DNA of 64,000 nucleotides from Parabacteroides sp. AD58 (lineage in GTDB: Bacteria > Bacteroidota > Bacteroidia > Bacteroidales > Tannerellaceae): positions 1,116,001 through 1,180,000 of the forward strand of contig NZ_CP146284.1 in the NCBI RefSeq assembly GCF_023744375.2, in the 5' to 3' direction. Under the pieces are notes generated by a model. That model searched no databases, was not told the origin of the DNA, and saw nothing but the letters and a program-made list of their open reading frames with translations. This document shows positions 442 to 36,771 of the stretch, piece after piece. Position 1 is the stretch's first letter, and every line of letters starts with the position of its first letter. The translations under genes were made by a program, and so were the position numbers.

Positions 442-589
442 ACAAATTAATATTACAAATGAGAAAATATAGAATAAAAGTTCCCTAACAGAATGCTTTT
501 GTAATAATTTGGAGATGTATCCTTGCTTTTTCGAGAAGAACACCTAGCGAATAACATGACTTTATTTCTCCAACTCATTTTATTTTTAT

Positions 590-677
590 CGTTTCACCCC
601 TGTGATACGACCGTTTCACCCTTGTGAAACGATCGTTCCACATAGGTGAGACGATCGTTCCACCCGGGTGGAACGAT
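590..677. repeat. Tandem array of four palindromic 22-bp units
   Basis: Four contiguous 22-bp units (590-611, 612-633, 634-655, 656-677). Each begins CGTTTCAC or CGTTCCAC and closes with its inverse (for example GTGAAACG or GGTGGAACG), so each unit is itself a near-palindrome around a variable centre. The array lies in the intergenic region between divergent hisH and the AraC-type regulator, roughly 65-150 bp upstream of the regulator's likely -7 box. It could be an operator array or a repeat of unknown role; see the arrays at 33722-33976 and 34868-35058. Apart from this array and the two promoters I see nothing else in the 405-778 gap. Confidence 0.85.
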
Positions 678-742
678 AAAAAGCTGCCGAGTTTTCTACA
701 TCTTCCCAAAAGGACCTTAGAATAACCATCCGATAAAATTAC

Positions 743-31830: not shown

Positions 31831-32205
31831 ATGAAAGGATTAACAGCAAAAGAAGAAGAAATCATGGGATTCTTCTGGGAGAAAGGTCCCTTGTTCGTAA
31901 AAGAATTACTGGCTTTCTACGATGATCCGAAGCCGCATTTCAATACTTTGTCGACTATTGTGAGAGGATTGGAAGAAAAAGGATATCTGGCACACGAAGC
32001 TTTTGGGAATACATACCGGTATTTTGCGGCTGTCTCGCAAGATGAGTTCCGATCCAAAACACTCAAGGGTGTGATCAGTAAATACTTCAATAACTCCTAC
32101 CTCAGCGCCGTTTCTACGCTGGTCAAGAAAGAAGAAATTTCGGTAGAAGAATTGAAACAGCTTATTCAGGAAGTGGAAGACGCACATCGCACATCCAACC
32201 CATAA
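31831..32205 (+). CDS. BlaI/MecI/CopY-family repressor
   Basis: 124 residues. Winged helix at the N-terminus (LTAKEEEIMGFFWEKGPLFVKELL, then FNTLSTIVRGLEEKGYL, the recognition helix and wing), followed by a helical dimerisation tail. BlaI repressors are inactivated when the partner BlaR1-type membrane peptidase is triggered. Here the partner begins 13 bp downstream. Target genes beyond its own operon are unknown; no beta-lactamase is adjacent, so a cell-envelope signal is as likely as a drug. Confidence 0.92.
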   Translation: MKGLTAKEEEIMGFFWEKGPLFVKELLAFYDDPKPHFNTLSTIVRGLEEKGYLAHEAFGNTYRYFAAVSQDEFRSKTLKGVISKYFNNSYLSAVSTLVKKEEISVEELKQLIQEVEDAHRTSNP

Positions 32206-32218
32206 AACGATTCATGCC

Positions 32219-33544
32219 ATGGGAATTTTCATTGCGTATATGATTAAATCCGGCTTTTGCCTGCTATTGTTCTACCTATTATATAAATGGCAACTGGCAA
32301 AAGAGACCTTTTTCCGAGTGAACCGGATCATGCTGCTTGGTTTCTGGGTTTTAGCATTCCTGCTTCCGGCCATCCCGCTAATCAAATGGGGAAACACGGA
32401 TTTGTATGCAGGATTGGATGTAAATCGGCAGGCAATCTTGAATTCACTGACGAACATTTCTCTTTCTGCGGAAACCAATACCGATCATCACGCCCTTATT
32501 TTAGCGTGGCTGATCTGTACAGGATATATAGTAGGTGTTGTCTTGATCGCAAGTAAACAGCTTGTTTCGTGGACCCGACTTTATTTACTCATCCGGCGAG
32601 GGCGGCGTATTGAAAACAAACCTTTTCATCTGATTCTGACCGAAGGAAATCAACCTCCATTCAGCTGGATGCATTACATCGTCTTGTCAGAAAAAGATTA
32701 CCGGGAAAATCCGACGGAAATCTTAACGCACGAGATGGCACACATCCGCCATCACCATTCATGGGATCTGTTATTGGCAGACATCGGCATTCTGCTGCAA
32801 TGGTTTAATCCGGCCGCCTGGTTACTCAAACAGGAAATGCAGTCGGTACACGAATACGAAGCCGATAATGCCGTGCTTGCCGCCGGGATCGATGCCAAGT
32901 CCTATCAGTTATTGCTTATTAAAAAAGCTGTCGGCACCAGTCGCTACACTATGGCCAACAGCTTCAATCACAGTTCACTAAAAAAACGTATTACTATGAT
33001 GTTAAAAGAAAAATCAAGCCCGCAGGCTCGTGCGAAGTACATCTATATACTTCCACTGGCAGCCTTATCGGTGATGGCATTTGCCCGTCCCGAAGTATCA
33101 GACGTATCAGCCGTCCTAACAAAAGCCAAAGTTACAGATTTGTGGACAATTCCACAAGAAAAAACCCCGGAAGTGAAAGCACAGTTTCCGGGCGGCGATG
33201 ATGCTTTTTTCCAATTTCTGGCCCGTAACGTAAAATATCCGACTCTCGCGCTGGAAGCTGGTAAACAAGGTCGTGTTGCATGCCTCGCAACTATTGGGGA
33301 AGACGGAACAATAAAAGAGGTTGAAATCACCCAGAGTGTGGATCCTGCACTAGATGCAGAAGTAATCCGTGTCATTAAAAAGACGCCGAAATGGGAGCCG
33401 GCAAAACTTGCCGGAAAAGCGGTTGAATACAAAATTCCTCTAGGCTTCATATTTAAAGTTGAAGGTAGTGATTTACATGTACAAACAGAATCAGATACCG
33501 ATATCGTTATTGTGGGATATGGACCTCAATCCAATGAGGAGTAA
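32219..33544 (+). CDS. BlaR1/MecR1-like M56 peptidase with C-terminal TonB-type domain
   Basis: 441 residues. Several membrane helices in the first ~115 residues, then the M56 zinc-peptidase core with HEMAHIRHHHSWD (HExxH, about residue 177) and the downstream EYEADNAVLAAG helix. A further helix near residue 285 is followed by a periplasmic domain with PGGDDAFFQFLARNVKYP and GRVACLATIGEDGTIKEVEI, the TonB C-terminal fold. It replaces the penicillin-binding domain of classical BlaR1, so the ligand is probably not a beta-lactam. Bacteroidetes have many such sensors. Operonic with the BlaI-like repressor. Confidence 0.9.
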   Translation: MGIFIAYMIKSGFCLLLFYLLYKWQLAKETFFRVNRIMLLGFWVLAFLLPAIPLIKWGNTDLYAGLDVNRQAILNSLTNISLSAETNTDHHALILAWLICTGYIVGVVLIASKQLVSWTRLYLLIRRGRRIENKPFHLILTEGNQPPFSWMHYIVLSEKDYRENPTEILTHEMAHIRHHHSWDLLLADIGILLQWFNPAAWLLKQEMQSVHEYEADNAVLAAGIDAKSYQLLLIKKAVGTSRYTMANSFNHSSLKKRITMMLKEKSSPQARAKYIYILPLAALSVMAFARPEVSDVSAVLTKAKVTDLWTIPQEKTPEVKAQFPGGDDAFFQFLARNVKYPTLALEAGKQGRVACLATIGEDGTIKEVEITQSVDPALDAEVIRVIKKTPKWEPAKLAGKAVEYKIPLGFIFKVEGSDLHVQTESDTDIVIVGYGPQSNEE

Positions 33545-33622
33545 AACAACGCTATTGCGGCAAACGGGTAAGATCGAAAATTCATTTTTATTGATATGAT
33601 TTGATCTCTCTCTCACACGAAA

Positions 33623-33666
33623 AAGAAATTCGGTACGACTCTGTTCCGAGTTTCTTATTCTTTTTT
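33623..33666 (+). terminator. Terminator of the blaI-blaR1 unit
   Basis: 11-bp stem with one G-U pair (33623-33633 with 33646-33656), followed by a T-rich run to 33666. Confidence 0.85.
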
Positions 33667-33721
33667 ATAGATCTTGTTTATATATAAATGATTCTTTTAA
33701 TATACTTTACTTGCAGGAAAC

Positions 33722-33976
33722 TACACATCCCTTGCTGAATTCAACAGGTGGCTTTGTCGGAATCAACATACCCTTTGCTGAAAACAACTACTTTTTCCCC
33801 TAAAAACGGCCATGAAGACAACCACACATGGGCATTTTCACGGTAAAAACCTACATTATTACTGTAGAAACCCGGATTATTACCGCAAAAACGCCCATTA
33901 TGTCTACAAAAATGGCAATTTTGAATGCAAAAAACCGTAATAAGTACAGCTGAAAGCCACTTATGATGACAACTTT
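33722..33976. repeat. Degenerate tandem array, period 21 bp (array B)
   Basis: From 33830 to 33976, seven consecutive units are each exactly 21 bp: 33830-33850, 33851-33871, 33872-33892, 33893-33913, 33914-33934, 33935-33955, 33956-33976. Typical units follow NNNNATTATTACNGNAAAAAC. Looser units of 19-24 bp with a terminal AAC extend left to about 33722. The last unit ends on the stop codon of the minus-strand gene at 33976. No reading frame covers the array. The units differ at most positions while period and A-rich end are kept. Confidence 0.8.
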
Positions 33977-34785
33977 TATTTGAGTGGAGAGGAATATTTT
34001 ATCATATAGCTGTTTAAACTATTGATAAAAATCGAGTAATCACGGTGAAAGCGGTCTCGCGTCAGGAAATAATTGAATAAATTCTTGGGTTTACACACCC
34101 CTTCCAGCACTTCGTCACAATAAGCAATAAAAGCCTGATGAATCGATTCGATCCCATAACGGGTTTCCAGATCCAGAAAACCTCGTTTCTGCTGGTTCGT
34201 CAATGCCACTGTTGTCGGATGCAGCTTACGGGTCGGCTTTATATCCAGCTCTCCTTTATTATACATTTCCCGCCGTTCATTCAATGTCTTTTCCAGCATC
34301 TCCCGGATTTCTTCAATCCGTTTTTCCTCCTGATTTTTCTTGGGTTTTTCCTTAACAGCCGAAGGACACAGAACTTTAAACTCCTCATCAGCATGATATT
34401 CCATATAAGCACGCATCGCCTCGAGCAACGTCGATTTTTCCCGAACCAACTTAGTCAGCACCTCTTCTTCAGTCAGTTTCTGGAAATTCACATAAAAATA
34501 ACGGATCTGTCCTTCCGAATTCGGCATCTTGTCAACATAGGTTTGCAGAAACCCCATTTCCTCAAACTTCTTGATGATTGCCTCATAACGGGTCCGTTTC
34601 ACACGCGTCTCCTTCTCGATCCGTTTCTGGGAATAAAAGAATCTTTTATAATGAAATGATATGGCTTTCACGACCAAAGAATCAAAAATAATCAATTCGT
34701 CGGGTGACAACAAATAATCATGCACGCGTAATACGTTCGTGCATAGAGGACAAGCTGGCGCTTCATCAGTCTCCAGTGCTTTCAT
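33976..34785 (-). CDS. Unrecognised protein, probable winged-helix DNA-binding domain
   Basis: 269 residues, cytoplasmic, no signal or membrane segment. A CPLC pair lies at residues 12-15. Residues ~25-100 read like a winged helix (YSQKRIEKETRVKRTRYEAI, then KKFEEMGFLQTYVD as recognition helix and wing). A highly charged helical linker (residues ~150-185, rich in K and E) leads to a C-terminal segment with QQKRGFLDLETRYGIESI. I cannot name a family; a replication-initiator or regulator fold is a guess. It is bracketed on both sides by 21-22-bp tandem arrays, which may be its binding sites. Confidence 0.7.
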   Translation of the reverse strand: MKALETDEAPACPLCTNVLRVHDYLLSPDELIIFDSLVVKAISFHYKRFFYSQKRIEKETRVKRTRYEAIIKKFEEMGFLQTYVDKMPNSEGQIRYFYVNFQKLTEEEVLTKLVREKSTLLEAMRAYMEYHADEEFKVLCPSAVKEKPKKNQEEKRIEEIREMLEKTLNERREMYNKGELDIKPTRKLHPTTVALTNQQKRGFLDLETRYGIESIHQAFIAYCDEVLEGVCKPKNLFNYFLTRDRFHRDYSIFINSLNSYMIKYSSPLK

Positions 34786-34867
34786 AGTTACTTATTTTTA
34801 ATTAAACAATAAGTAAAAATAAAAACATTTTTTTAATCTGGCAATTATTTGAGGAAGAAAAGTGGCA

Positions 34868-35058
34868 GTCACGCAAAAAAAATTCATGCCTGCCAATTCC
34901 TGAAAACACGCCGGCTTTTTCTTCATTCGTGCCGGCTTTTCATCAATTTACGCCGGCTTTTCAAGGAAAAGCCTATAGGTTTGAAAATGGATTCCCGTCG
35001 GTTTTAAAATAGATTCCTATTGGTTTCAGTTCCGATCCTCGTATGTTTCGTTTCAAAC
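34868..35058. repeat. Degenerate tandem array, period 21-22 bp (array C)
   Basis: Nine consecutive units: 34868-34888, 34889-34909, 34910-34930, 34931-34951, 34952-34972 (21 bp each), 34973-34994 and 34995-35016 (22 bp), 35017-35037 and 35038-35058 (21 bp). Three successive units begin GCCGGCTTTT and then diverge; later ones share GGTTT. The complementary strand gives A-rich units ending in GCC, resembling array B in the opposite orientation. It fills most of the gap between the gene at 33976-34785 and the FKBP gene. Confidence 0.78.
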
Positions 35059-35134
35059 ATAAATTAAAAGAAGATCCTTCGGCTTATTTCCGGAAAATCC
35101 GTTAATTTTATCCCGTAAACAATCCTATATCACG

Positions 35135-35533
35135 ATGAATAAGAAAGAATATATCCAGGCCAACCAGGAATGGCTGGCGGCAAAGGCACACGAAGAAGGC
35201 GTTCAGGCACTTCCGAAAGGTATTTATTATAAAGTGTTGTCGAGCGGCAAGGCCGATGGAAAACATCCTACGCCGAGAAGCATCATCACGGCCCATTATA
35301 CCGGATGGACGATCGACGGGAAGGAATTTGACAGCAGCCGGGGCGGCACACCGATTGCTTTCCGCCTGAGCGATTTGATTGAAGGATGGATCATTGCCAT
35401 GCAGCAGATGTGCATCGGCGACAAATGGGAAATCTATCTTCCGGCCGAAATGGGATACGGGAAATTCTCGCAACCGGGCATTCCCGGAGGTTCAACCCTC
35501 ATTTTCGAGATCGAATTATTGGGCATTGCCTGA
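35135..35533 (+). CDS. FKBP-type peptidyl-prolyl cis-trans isomerase
   Basis: 132 residues. One FKBP domain: HYTGWTIDGKEFDSS near residue 53, IEGWIIAMQQMCIGDKWEIYLPAEMGYG near residue 82, and the closing GGSTLIFEIELLGI. No signal peptide, so it is a cytoplasmic folding helper unlike the many lipoprotein FKBPs of this phylum. Convergent with pncB. Confidence 0.93.
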   Translation: MNKKEYIQANQEWLAAKAHEEGVQALPKGIYYKVLSSGKADGKHPTPRSIITAHYTGWTIDGKEFDSSRGGTPIAFRLSDLIEGWIIAMQQMCIGDKWEIYLPAEMGYGKFSQPGIPGGSTLIFEIELLGIA

Positions 35534-35534
35534 A

Positions 35535-35568
35535 AGGGGAAATAATATTTTCCCCACTTATTTCCCCT
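35535..35568. terminator. Hairpin between convergent FKBP and pncB genes
   Basis: Perfect 11-bp stem AGGGGAAATAA/TTATTTCCCCT (35535-35545 with 35558-35568). No strong T-run follows; a second 6-bp stem (CGGGAT/ATCCCG) lies just to the right. Likely a bidirectional terminator. Confidence 0.6.
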
Positions 35569-35604
35569 GACAGACAATCGGGATGGTTTCTATCCCGTCT
35601 GATA

Positions 35605-36771
35605 TTATTTCAGTCCCAGTTCATACAGACAGGCTTCCACTTCGCGGTCACTGCCCATGTGTTTGCCCATATCGTCGGAAAGCTTCACGCATTCGCGCCA
35701 CGGCTGGTTTACGTTCATCTTGCAGCGGGCCAGTTTCATGACGACATTCGACGGCTTGTAACCCGCGTCGTTGGTCAGATTCGTTCCGATTCCGAAAGCA
35801 CAGCGGATTTTTCCTTTACAATATTGCTGGATACGCAGGGCCTTGTCGAAATCGAGGGCGTTACTGAAGATGATCGTTTTGGTAGTCGAATCGATGCCAA
35901 ACTCCCGATAGCGGCGCACCAGTTCATCTACGAAGGTATATTCATCACCCGAATCACACCTGACACCATCAAACAACTTGGCCTGCTTACGGCTCAGGTT
36001 TGTCAGGAAGGATTCCGACGTATATGTATCGGCCAAAGCCGTTCCCAGATCGCCGTCATATACATTCACCCAGTTTTCGAGCGCCATGTAATTGGCATGC
36101 TTGTACCCAAACTGAGCCCCGTGGAACATAAACCATTCATGCGGATGCGTACCCATCATTTTCATGTTATACTTCATGGCGAAATGGCAGTTGGAAGTAC
36201 CCGTACAATAGAAAGAATTCTCATTCAGATAATTAATCACGGCATCCTGAACTTCCAGTGAAAAACGGCGGCGCGTGCCGAACTCTGAAAATGATAAGTG
36301 ATTCTTATTGGAAAGCTCTACCTTCTCATACAACTTGGCCAGCATCTGTTCCTTATCGGCCACATTGCCCGAGATCAGATTCTGTATTTCAGTGACAATT
36401 GCCAGCAGAGGAACCTCATACAGCGTTACCTTATATAAATAATCGGTCACTTCAATATGAAGATGCTTTTCCTCGTCCAGAAAAATCTGAATCTTTTCCG
36501 GATCAAAGCGGAATGATGAAAGCCATTCCCAGTAGACACGAGGCACAAAGCGACAGTGCGAACTCATATACTCGAGTTCTTCCGGCCGTAAATGTACCCA
36601 AGCCAAGTCGTGCACTTCTGCCTTGAGTCGGGAAACGAATTTATCCGAGCAAATGGTTTCGTCGCGGTCTTTAAAAGTAAATGTACCCCAGGCGTTGGGG
36701 AATAGCTTCACATATGCATAAGATGTGGTAAACTTGTATAAATCTGTATCCAAAAGACTGTTTATAATCAT
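35605..36771 (-). CDS. pncB: Nicotinate phosphoribosyltransferase
   Basis: 388 residues. Makes nicotinate mononucleotide from nicotinate and PRPP in NAD salvage. N-terminal SLLDTDLYKFTTSYAY and the segments EFGTRRRFSLEVQDAV near residue 166 and VRCDSGDEYTF near 275 are typical of PncB, including the phosphorylated-His region (GTHPHEWFMFH). Normal length. Stands alone. Confidence 0.95.
   Translation of the reverse strand: MIINSLLDTDLYKFTTSYAYVKLFPNAWGTFTFKDRDETICSDKFVSRLKAEVHDLAWVHLRPEELEYMSSHCRFVPRVYWEWLSSFRFDPEKIQIFLDEEKHLHIEVTDYLYKVTLYEVPLLAIVTEIQNLISGNVADKEQMLAKLYEKVELSNKNHLSFSEFGTRRRFSLEVQDAVINYLNENSFYCTGTSNCHFAMKYNMKMMGTHPHEWFMFHGAQFGYKHANYMALENWVNVYDGDLGTALADTYTSESFLTNLSRKQAKLFDGVRCDSGDEYTFVDELVRRYREFGIDSTTKTIIFSNALDFDKALRIQQYCKGKIRCAFGIGTNLTNDAGYKPSNVVMKLARCKMNVNQPWRECVKLSDDMGKHMGSDREVEACLYELGLK

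Follow-up and report, generated by a model that had tools for sequence, protein, structure and literature searches.

A possible iteron-type array beside a winged-helix gene in Parabacteroides, and a wider class of 21–22-bp arrays in Bacteroidales

In a 64,000-nucleotide stretch of the chromosome of Parabacteroides sp. AD58 (hereafter the window), four semi-palindromic sites and an A/T-rich tract lie beside a gene that encodes a 269-aa winged-helix protein. We put at roughly 55% the probability that these sites, which we call W, form together with the tract an iteron array of the replication-origin type that would be bound by the 269-aa protein; both the binding and the role in replication are read from sequence and predicted structure. 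The gene and its conserved origin-like site constitute a small, testable protein–DNA pair on a gut-bacterial chromosome, and the locus also proved to be a doorway to a genome-wide class of arrays with periods of 21–22 bp.

Two adjacent arrays in one intergenic region

The array region lies between the stop codons of an M56-peptidase/TonB_C gene (32219-33544) and the minus-strand winged-helix gene, and positions 33722-33976 within it were originally predicted to be a degenerate tandem array with an exact 21-bp period that ends on a stop codon. The stop codon of the minus-strand gene does have its last base at 33976, and the periodicity is real. Over 33722-33976 the base identity at lag 21 is 0.444, with 0.427 at lag 42 and 0.422 at lag 63, compared with 0.268 in 1000 dinucleotide shuffles (z = 6.2 for lag 21), and none of the 1000 shuffles equalled that of lag 21 at any lag between 5 and 69; the autocorrelation is stronger than in shuffled sequence, as the prediction had anticipated. 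It had also been right in setting aside both a CRISPR and a reading frame: the layout of a constant repeat with unique spacers is absent from the array region, which has a period of 21 bp and no constant repeat, and no ORF of at least 60 aa was found between 33545 and 33975.

The period is not uniform across the region, however. Identity at lag 21 reaches 0.611 in the right part (33840-33950), to which the exact 21-bp period is confined, whereas in the left part (33722-33840) the best lag is 22 (0.412), a value that is not significant over all lags given that 147/1000 shuffles equal it. The sole call of Tandem Repeats Finder was at 33843-33901 (period 21, 2.8 copies). The region comprises two arrays, W on the left (33711-33790) and a second one, H, on the right, and the claim of an exact 21-bp period stands for the right part and fails on the left, where the steps from one site start to the next are 21, 22 and 21 bp. 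Coordinates of these and other features are collected in Table 1.

Between the window and Parabacteroides faecalis, H is 80.1% identical, a spacer-like rate, with no indel between the two species. The original argument, that selection on spacing follows from an exact period in diverged sequence, is not supported by this comparison, as the part with the exact 21-bp period diverges like a spacer, though without indels. It is a serious possibility, if short of an even chance, that H is a neutral tandem repeat that arose by slippage and is now decaying; its spacer-like identity agrees with this, as does a related array that by eye differs by one exact unit between two other loci of the gene family (L003 and L010). 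On the other hand, simple slippage should favour no single period, whereas lags of 21–22 dominate the stretches that we scanned, and H resembles an array inside a gene of the Lin1244_N family (PF14297; see below). On sequence grounds we read H as a second, faster-evolving array of the genome-wide 21–22-bp class. Should the arrays prove to be neutral, they would still testify to a tandem-repeat process that is unusual in being tuned to two helical turns.

Table 1 Features of the window discussed in the text, with positions counted from its first base.
Feature	Position	Strand	Remark
Family A array, four palindromes of GTTTCACNNNNGTGAAAC type exactly 22 bp apart	565..698		separate member of the wider class
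A/T-rich tract, proposed unwinding tract	33655..33704		88% A+T over 50 bp
W site 1	33711..33726		most diverged, 5 substitutions from consensus
W site 2	33732..33747		TTGCTGAATTCAACAG
W site 3	33754..33769		
W site 4	33775..33790		
H array, exact 21-bp units with phased A-tracts	33815..33950	-	80.1% identical to P. faecalis; part best seen in the original prediction
Gene of 269-aa winged-helix protein	33976..34785	-	weak likeness to replication initiators
G array, upstream of gene, about three 21-bp units with CGCCGGCTTTT or TGCCGGCTTTT	34885..34975		family shared with dispersed P. faecalis arrays
Second upstream array, 22 bp, CCTATAGGTTTGAAAATAGATT type	34951..35060		

Conserved W sites, an A/T-rich tract and a winged-helix gene

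The four W sites are semi-palindromic, of the TTGYTGAAWTCARCAA type, and lie about 186-265 bp from the end of the winged-helix gene; the least stable 30-mer of the region is at 33677-33706. The segment that contains them (33705-33796) is 96.7% identical between the window and P. faecalis, compared with 79.5%, 81.1% and 85.1% for the spacers at 33545-33690, 34786-34880 and 35061-35134, respectively, 93.0% for the gene itself and 85.4-91.9% for neighbouring genes. Because both H and these spacers are so much less similar between the two species, the best-conserved piece by sequence comparison is W, the part that had looked looser in the original prediction, and not the exact repeat.

The tract and W sites can be aligned in the window, P. 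faecalis, Bacteroides sp. 519 (L002), B. rodentium (L003) and a locus from the genus of genome G003 (L010). With each locus oriented tract-first, the W sites follow an A/T-rich tract (78-90% over 50 bp) in all five genomes; L002, L003 and L010 carry an extra site after the W sites at +30 or +31, and in the window and P. faecalis the tract/W module is inverted relative to the gene. The independent lineages that carry the module number about three, since the window is closely related to P. faecalis and L003 to L010.

Runs of four W sites with 21/22-bp steps stand beside the gene at four of the seven loci of its family (the window, P. faecalis, L002 and L010), and the longest runs at the others are of two sites (L003), one (L007, a short distant relative) and none (L011, at a contig end). 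Among 457 control intergenic stretches, nine held a run of two sites and none a run of three or more, a comparison that shows only the rarity of such runs elsewhere and is not an independent prediction, because the W consensus was derived from the same loci. Across 1.92 Mb of P. faecalis, 0.4 Mb of genome G374 and the window, clusters of W sites are confined to the gene locus save for one place with two matches, and no W cluster was seen at the relatives L190-L195, several of which are weak or at contig ends. The original suggestion of protein sites on one face of the helix gains support for the left part, from four palindromes two helical turns apart, their conservation relative to spacers and their recurrence at four of seven loci compared with none of 457 controls.

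The protein encoded by the gene is 93% identical to its P. faecalis orthologue and 39-40% identical to its relatives at L002, L003 and L010. Three PHROGs families annotated as replication initiation match it (E 1.4e-4 to 2.9e-3), and its predicted model (pLDDT 82) has fold matches to a DnaD model, a primosome protein and phage replication proteins, and also to 4pql, 4pt7 and 5kbj, whose descriptions read DNA binding protein, initiator and Rep-DNA complex. By sequence and predicted fold, the protein appears to bear a weak likeness to phage and plasmid initiators. RepA_N (PF06970) was not among the Pfam families matched by the protein at E up to 0.1, nor among those matched by 10 members of its family at E up to 10, a search in which HMMER filters drop weak matches. 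A viral scan returned no relatives of the protein, blastn of 33690-33960 against plasmids and phages gave no match, and neither did PADLOC.

The gene is patchily distributed. Ordinary chromosomal genes surround it, and no integrase, helicase or plasmid gene was found among the 10 neighbours tested; the W locus is therefore probably a domesticated or relic replicator. A BlaI-like repressor gene and the gene for the M56 peptidase with a TonB C-terminal domain (31831-33544) form a sensor-type pair that adjoins the array region. In an empty-site comparison of the M56-FKBP locus, the best matches of both genes were not adjacent in the six other genomes searched.

If W and the tract are of the origin type, a dimer of the 269-aa protein would occupy each W site, the four dimers would assemble on one helix face into a single nucleoprotein complex, and this complex would either regulate expression or open the A/T tract in the manner of an initiator. 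A less likely reading, though one to be taken seriously, is that W is only an operator array: a winged-helix transcription repressor would act through its four cooperative sites on its own gene or on a neighbour, and replication would play no part. In that case, however, the sites would be oddly placed, as they lie downstream of the gene and between convergent genes rather than at the gene promoter; an A/T-rich tract accompanies W in all five aligned genomes, and the family matches of the protein, weak as they are, name replication initiation.

An iteron array would have parallels in known systems. The Rep protein of pSK41 binds four Rep boxes located centrally within its gene (PMC5703833), RepA_N iterons are mainly semi-palindromic direct repeats that converge on a poly-A tract (PMC7145576), and ori lambda, which lies in the O gene, has four iterons and an A/T-rich region (PMC7466680). 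With the RepA_N plasmid initiators (pSK41, pTZ2162 and PLE RepA) the W locus may share a winged-helix initiator-like protein, whose predicted model aligns with 4pql, 4pt7 and 5kbj, and it has in common with them four semi-palindromic sites with an A/T centre near the gene; the runs of four W-type sites at four of seven loci correspond to the several semi-palindromic iterons that characterise a RepA_N rep gene. The 269-aa protein differs in having no RepA_N Pfam match, the W sites lie beside the gene whereas those of pSK41 lie inside it, and the setting is chromosomal, as the neighbours tested include no plasmid or satellite gene. The resemblance to lambda O and its origin lies in four phased sites that adjoin an A/T-rich tract (a likeness of layout only, with W as putative initiator sites) and in the weak PHROG matches to O-like initiators; ori lambda is within the O gene, whereas the W sites are outside theirs, and no helicase loader or other phage gene was found among the neighbours tested. 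Because the RepA_N profile does not match and the sites are outside the gene, we do not class the W locus as a member of RepA_N or lambda-type systems.

Further arrays lie upstream of the gene (Table 1). Periodicity there, over 34880-35050, gives a lag-22 identity of 0.49 (z = 6.3), and the G array and the second upstream array together (34885-35060) are 83.5% identical to P. faecalis. An array is found less than 500 bp from the gene at five of the seven loci of its family, which include close kin, compared with 148 of 1331 control genes.

A genome-wide class of 21–22-bp arrays

A search for the same period in other Bacteroidales intergenic regions, which had been proposed as a check, was strongly positive in the three genomes examined (G374, P. 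faecalis and G476). Lags 21 and 22 were prominent in 400 kb each of G374 and P. faecalis. In non-coding sequence of 1.61 Mb of P. faecalis, at z of at least 6, lag 21 was recorded 26 times and lag 22 28 times, compared with at most three for any other single lag from 8 to 40; near the doubled period, lags 41, 42 and 44 were recorded 11, 17 and 9 times, respectively. The non-coding part of 400 kb of G476 gave lag 22 eight times, lags 23 and 44 three times each, lag 21 twice, and lags 18 and 24 once each.

In total, 84 arrays with a period of 20-23 bp (z of at least 5.5) were detected in 1.92 Mb of P. faecalis, all but one of them mainly non-coding, and the density in the stretches scanned is about 40 arrays per Mb. 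Periods of 21 bp (37 arrays) and 22 bp (41) account for 78 of them, with four at 23 bp and two at 20 bp. Labelled by pattern, the arrays fall into at least seven sequence families (B 19, G 11, C 9, D 9, A 7, E 6 and F 2, with 21 unlabelled), usually with four palindromes each, a number that is biased at its lower end because array detection needs about 85 bp of periodic sequence and misses shorter arrays. Counting P. faecalis and the window together, the longest run is exactly four sites in 8/8 arrays of family A, 19/19 of B, 8/9 of D and 6/6 of E; it is also four in 9/9 labelled arrays of family C, whose loose pattern yields 1215 two-site runs by chance. Spacing in runs of at least three sites is always 22 bp (A, B and E) or 21 bp (D). 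Two-site runs were also recovered (A 3, B 21, D 2 and E 6), and because none of these 32 overlaps a longer run they are separate places, which may be short arrays or spots that a loose pattern matches by chance; that they mark a second symmetry centre of longer arrays is ruled out by the same observation. Aligned copies of families A, B and D delineate elements of about 90-105 bp with sharp ends and unrelated flanks. The two arms of the palindromes change independently of each other in families A, B, D and E and show no covariation of the hairpin kind.

One dispersed array lies near the start of the window, between hisH-like and AraC-type genes (both named by eye). This family A array has a lag-22 identity of 0.628 (z = 8.2) over 575-690, and positions 586-680 are 96.8% identical to P. 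faecalis whereas the flanks are 34.7% and 79.6% identical, which indicates that this one array is under constraint. In an orthologous family A array in two other genomes (L134 in G476 and L146 in G477), one 22-bp unit is the exact reverse complement, as seen by eye in a single alignment, and this reads as a small inversion across the palindrome.

The arrays have no clear gene-orientation preference: the genes around 80 non-coding arrays (G374, P. faecalis and the window) are divergent in 22 cases, convergent in 12 and tandem in 46, compared with 119, 55 and 340, respectively, for reference gaps of at least 150 bp (orientation and distance counts rely on a simple purpose-made gene caller). No gene family was common to the array flanks, among 161 flanking proteins. 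One gene pair recurs beside two G arrays, and scattered paralogues were also observed.

It is unlikely, in our estimation, that the dispersed arrays are mobile repeats of the REP/BIME or MITE kind. Families of ~100-bp elements with sharp ends and unrelated flanks would suit such an origin, as would a family B array that is present in P. faecalis (contig C15, ~64.5 kb) and missing from the window at ~25003; however, the indel at this site spans ~225 bp and is flanked by the 7-base repeat ATTATAA, and because it is larger than the array and so flanked, the difference also fits a deletion. Moreover, the Y1 transposase (PF01797) is absent from P. faecalis and G476 and was present in 2/12 genomes searched, target-site duplications are not above cross-pairs for family D (9 elements) or A (7; the two elements of B are too few), and the window's family A array is found at the same place in P. 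faecalis. In IMG/VR, nothing matched the exact patterns for families A, B, D and G. A search of mobile DNA with a B. rodentium family pattern returned nine stretches, arrays of period 23 or 24 that we judged unrelated.

Intrinsic curvature produced by phased A-tracts is highly improbable as the selected property. The A-tracts of H are in helical phase, as originally suggested (1/1000 shuffles as strong, and 0/1000 over 33722-33976), but this part of the suggestion does not extend to the class: in the four arrays taken as examples of families A, B, C and D (one per family), which share the period, the A-tracts are not phased, and curvature therefore cannot be the common cause of the arrays. H is also no better conserved between species than a spacer, and a tandem repeat containing one A-tract is bound to be phased. 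A role for the arrays as RNA hairpins, whether to terminate transcripts or to stabilise their 3' ends, is scarcely tenable, for although their units are palindromic and they lie closer to gene 3' ends than to gene starts, arm pairing in families A, B, D and E is no better than with shuffled arms beyond scatter, in the aligned families A, B and D a T-rich end comes first and an A-rich end last (the reverse of the order in a terminator), 22 of the 80 non-coding arrays with both neighbours known are between divergent genes, and Rfam gave no match at gathering score over 33000-36000.

The class was not found described in the open-access literature that we searched. Porphyromonas gingivalis, which belongs to the same bacterial order, is the host of the BrickBuilt repeats. 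As described (PMC4596501), these are intergenic tandem repeats with a 23-nt direct-repeat family, a leader, a tail and MITE-type ends; they resemble our arrays in being intergenic repeats of about two helical turns with many copies per genome, and that description sets them apart as a single 23-nt family as opposed to several families of phased palindromes, usually four. REP/BIME elements are likewise interspersed extragenic palindromes, but no RAYT-type (Y1) transposase occurs in P. faecalis, and our arrays have a fixed 21-22-bp spacing and come in several unrelated unit families per genome.

We offer, as a speculation to which we give little weight at present, that a large class of iteron-like arrays of about 100 bp exists in the chromosomes of Bacteroidales, usually of four palindromes two helical turns apart, in several unrelated families per genome and with at least one dispersed array (family A of the window) under purifying selection; such arrays may serve as assembly platforms or decoys for initiator- or repressor-like proteins, and the winged-helix gene and W would be one locus where protein and sites have stayed side by side. 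As decoys, the arrays might conceivably act against incoming replicons, by analogy with plasmids carrying oop and the ori-lambda iterons, which are reported to exclude lambda (PMC3349717). A class of arrays with a nearly fixed number and spacing of sites calls for binding proteins, and their discovery could bring to light, in abundant gut bacteria, a layer of chromosome organisation, regulation or defence.

Arrays at Lin1244_N genes

Matches to Lin1244_N (PF14297) numbered 42, in 14 of 41 genomes, and 30 of these loci were examined. An array with a period of 19-24 bp was found at 20 of the 30, or at 18 of 28 after dropping one of each of two near-duplicate pairs (Fisher p = 4e-9 relative to G374); control stretches of similar length, drawn from genomes other than those of the PF14297 loci, held an array in 83/600 (G374), 84/600 (P. 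faecalis) and 93/581 cases (G476). At the 23 loci where the gene was placed, 10 arrays were inside it, 12 upstream and 5 downstream, with two near-duplicate pairs counted twice. The period was 21 bp, a whole number of codons, in 9 of the 10 in-gene arrays and 22 bp in 9 of the 12 upstream arrays.

The proteins of these genes are not detectably related to the 269-aa protein: hhalign of the two families gave a probability of 0.1, and the latter has no Pfam match to PF14297. Array families G and H are present at both kinds of locus in P. faecalis. A Lin1244_N gene of this species has a G array in its upstream gap, as the winged-helix gene does, and contains an H-like 21-bp array that ranked second of 37 period-21 arrays in resemblance to H, behind H's own orthologue. 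The same-strand score between H and this in-gene array exceeds 99.85% of column shuffles; on the reverse strand the score is slightly higher still. Across the loci L196-L225, PF14297 genes often have a 22-bp array upstream together with a 21-bp (7-codon) array in the gene. At one of them (L201), the gene and its arrays have as neighbours genes for a CI-like repressor and an HU-like protein.
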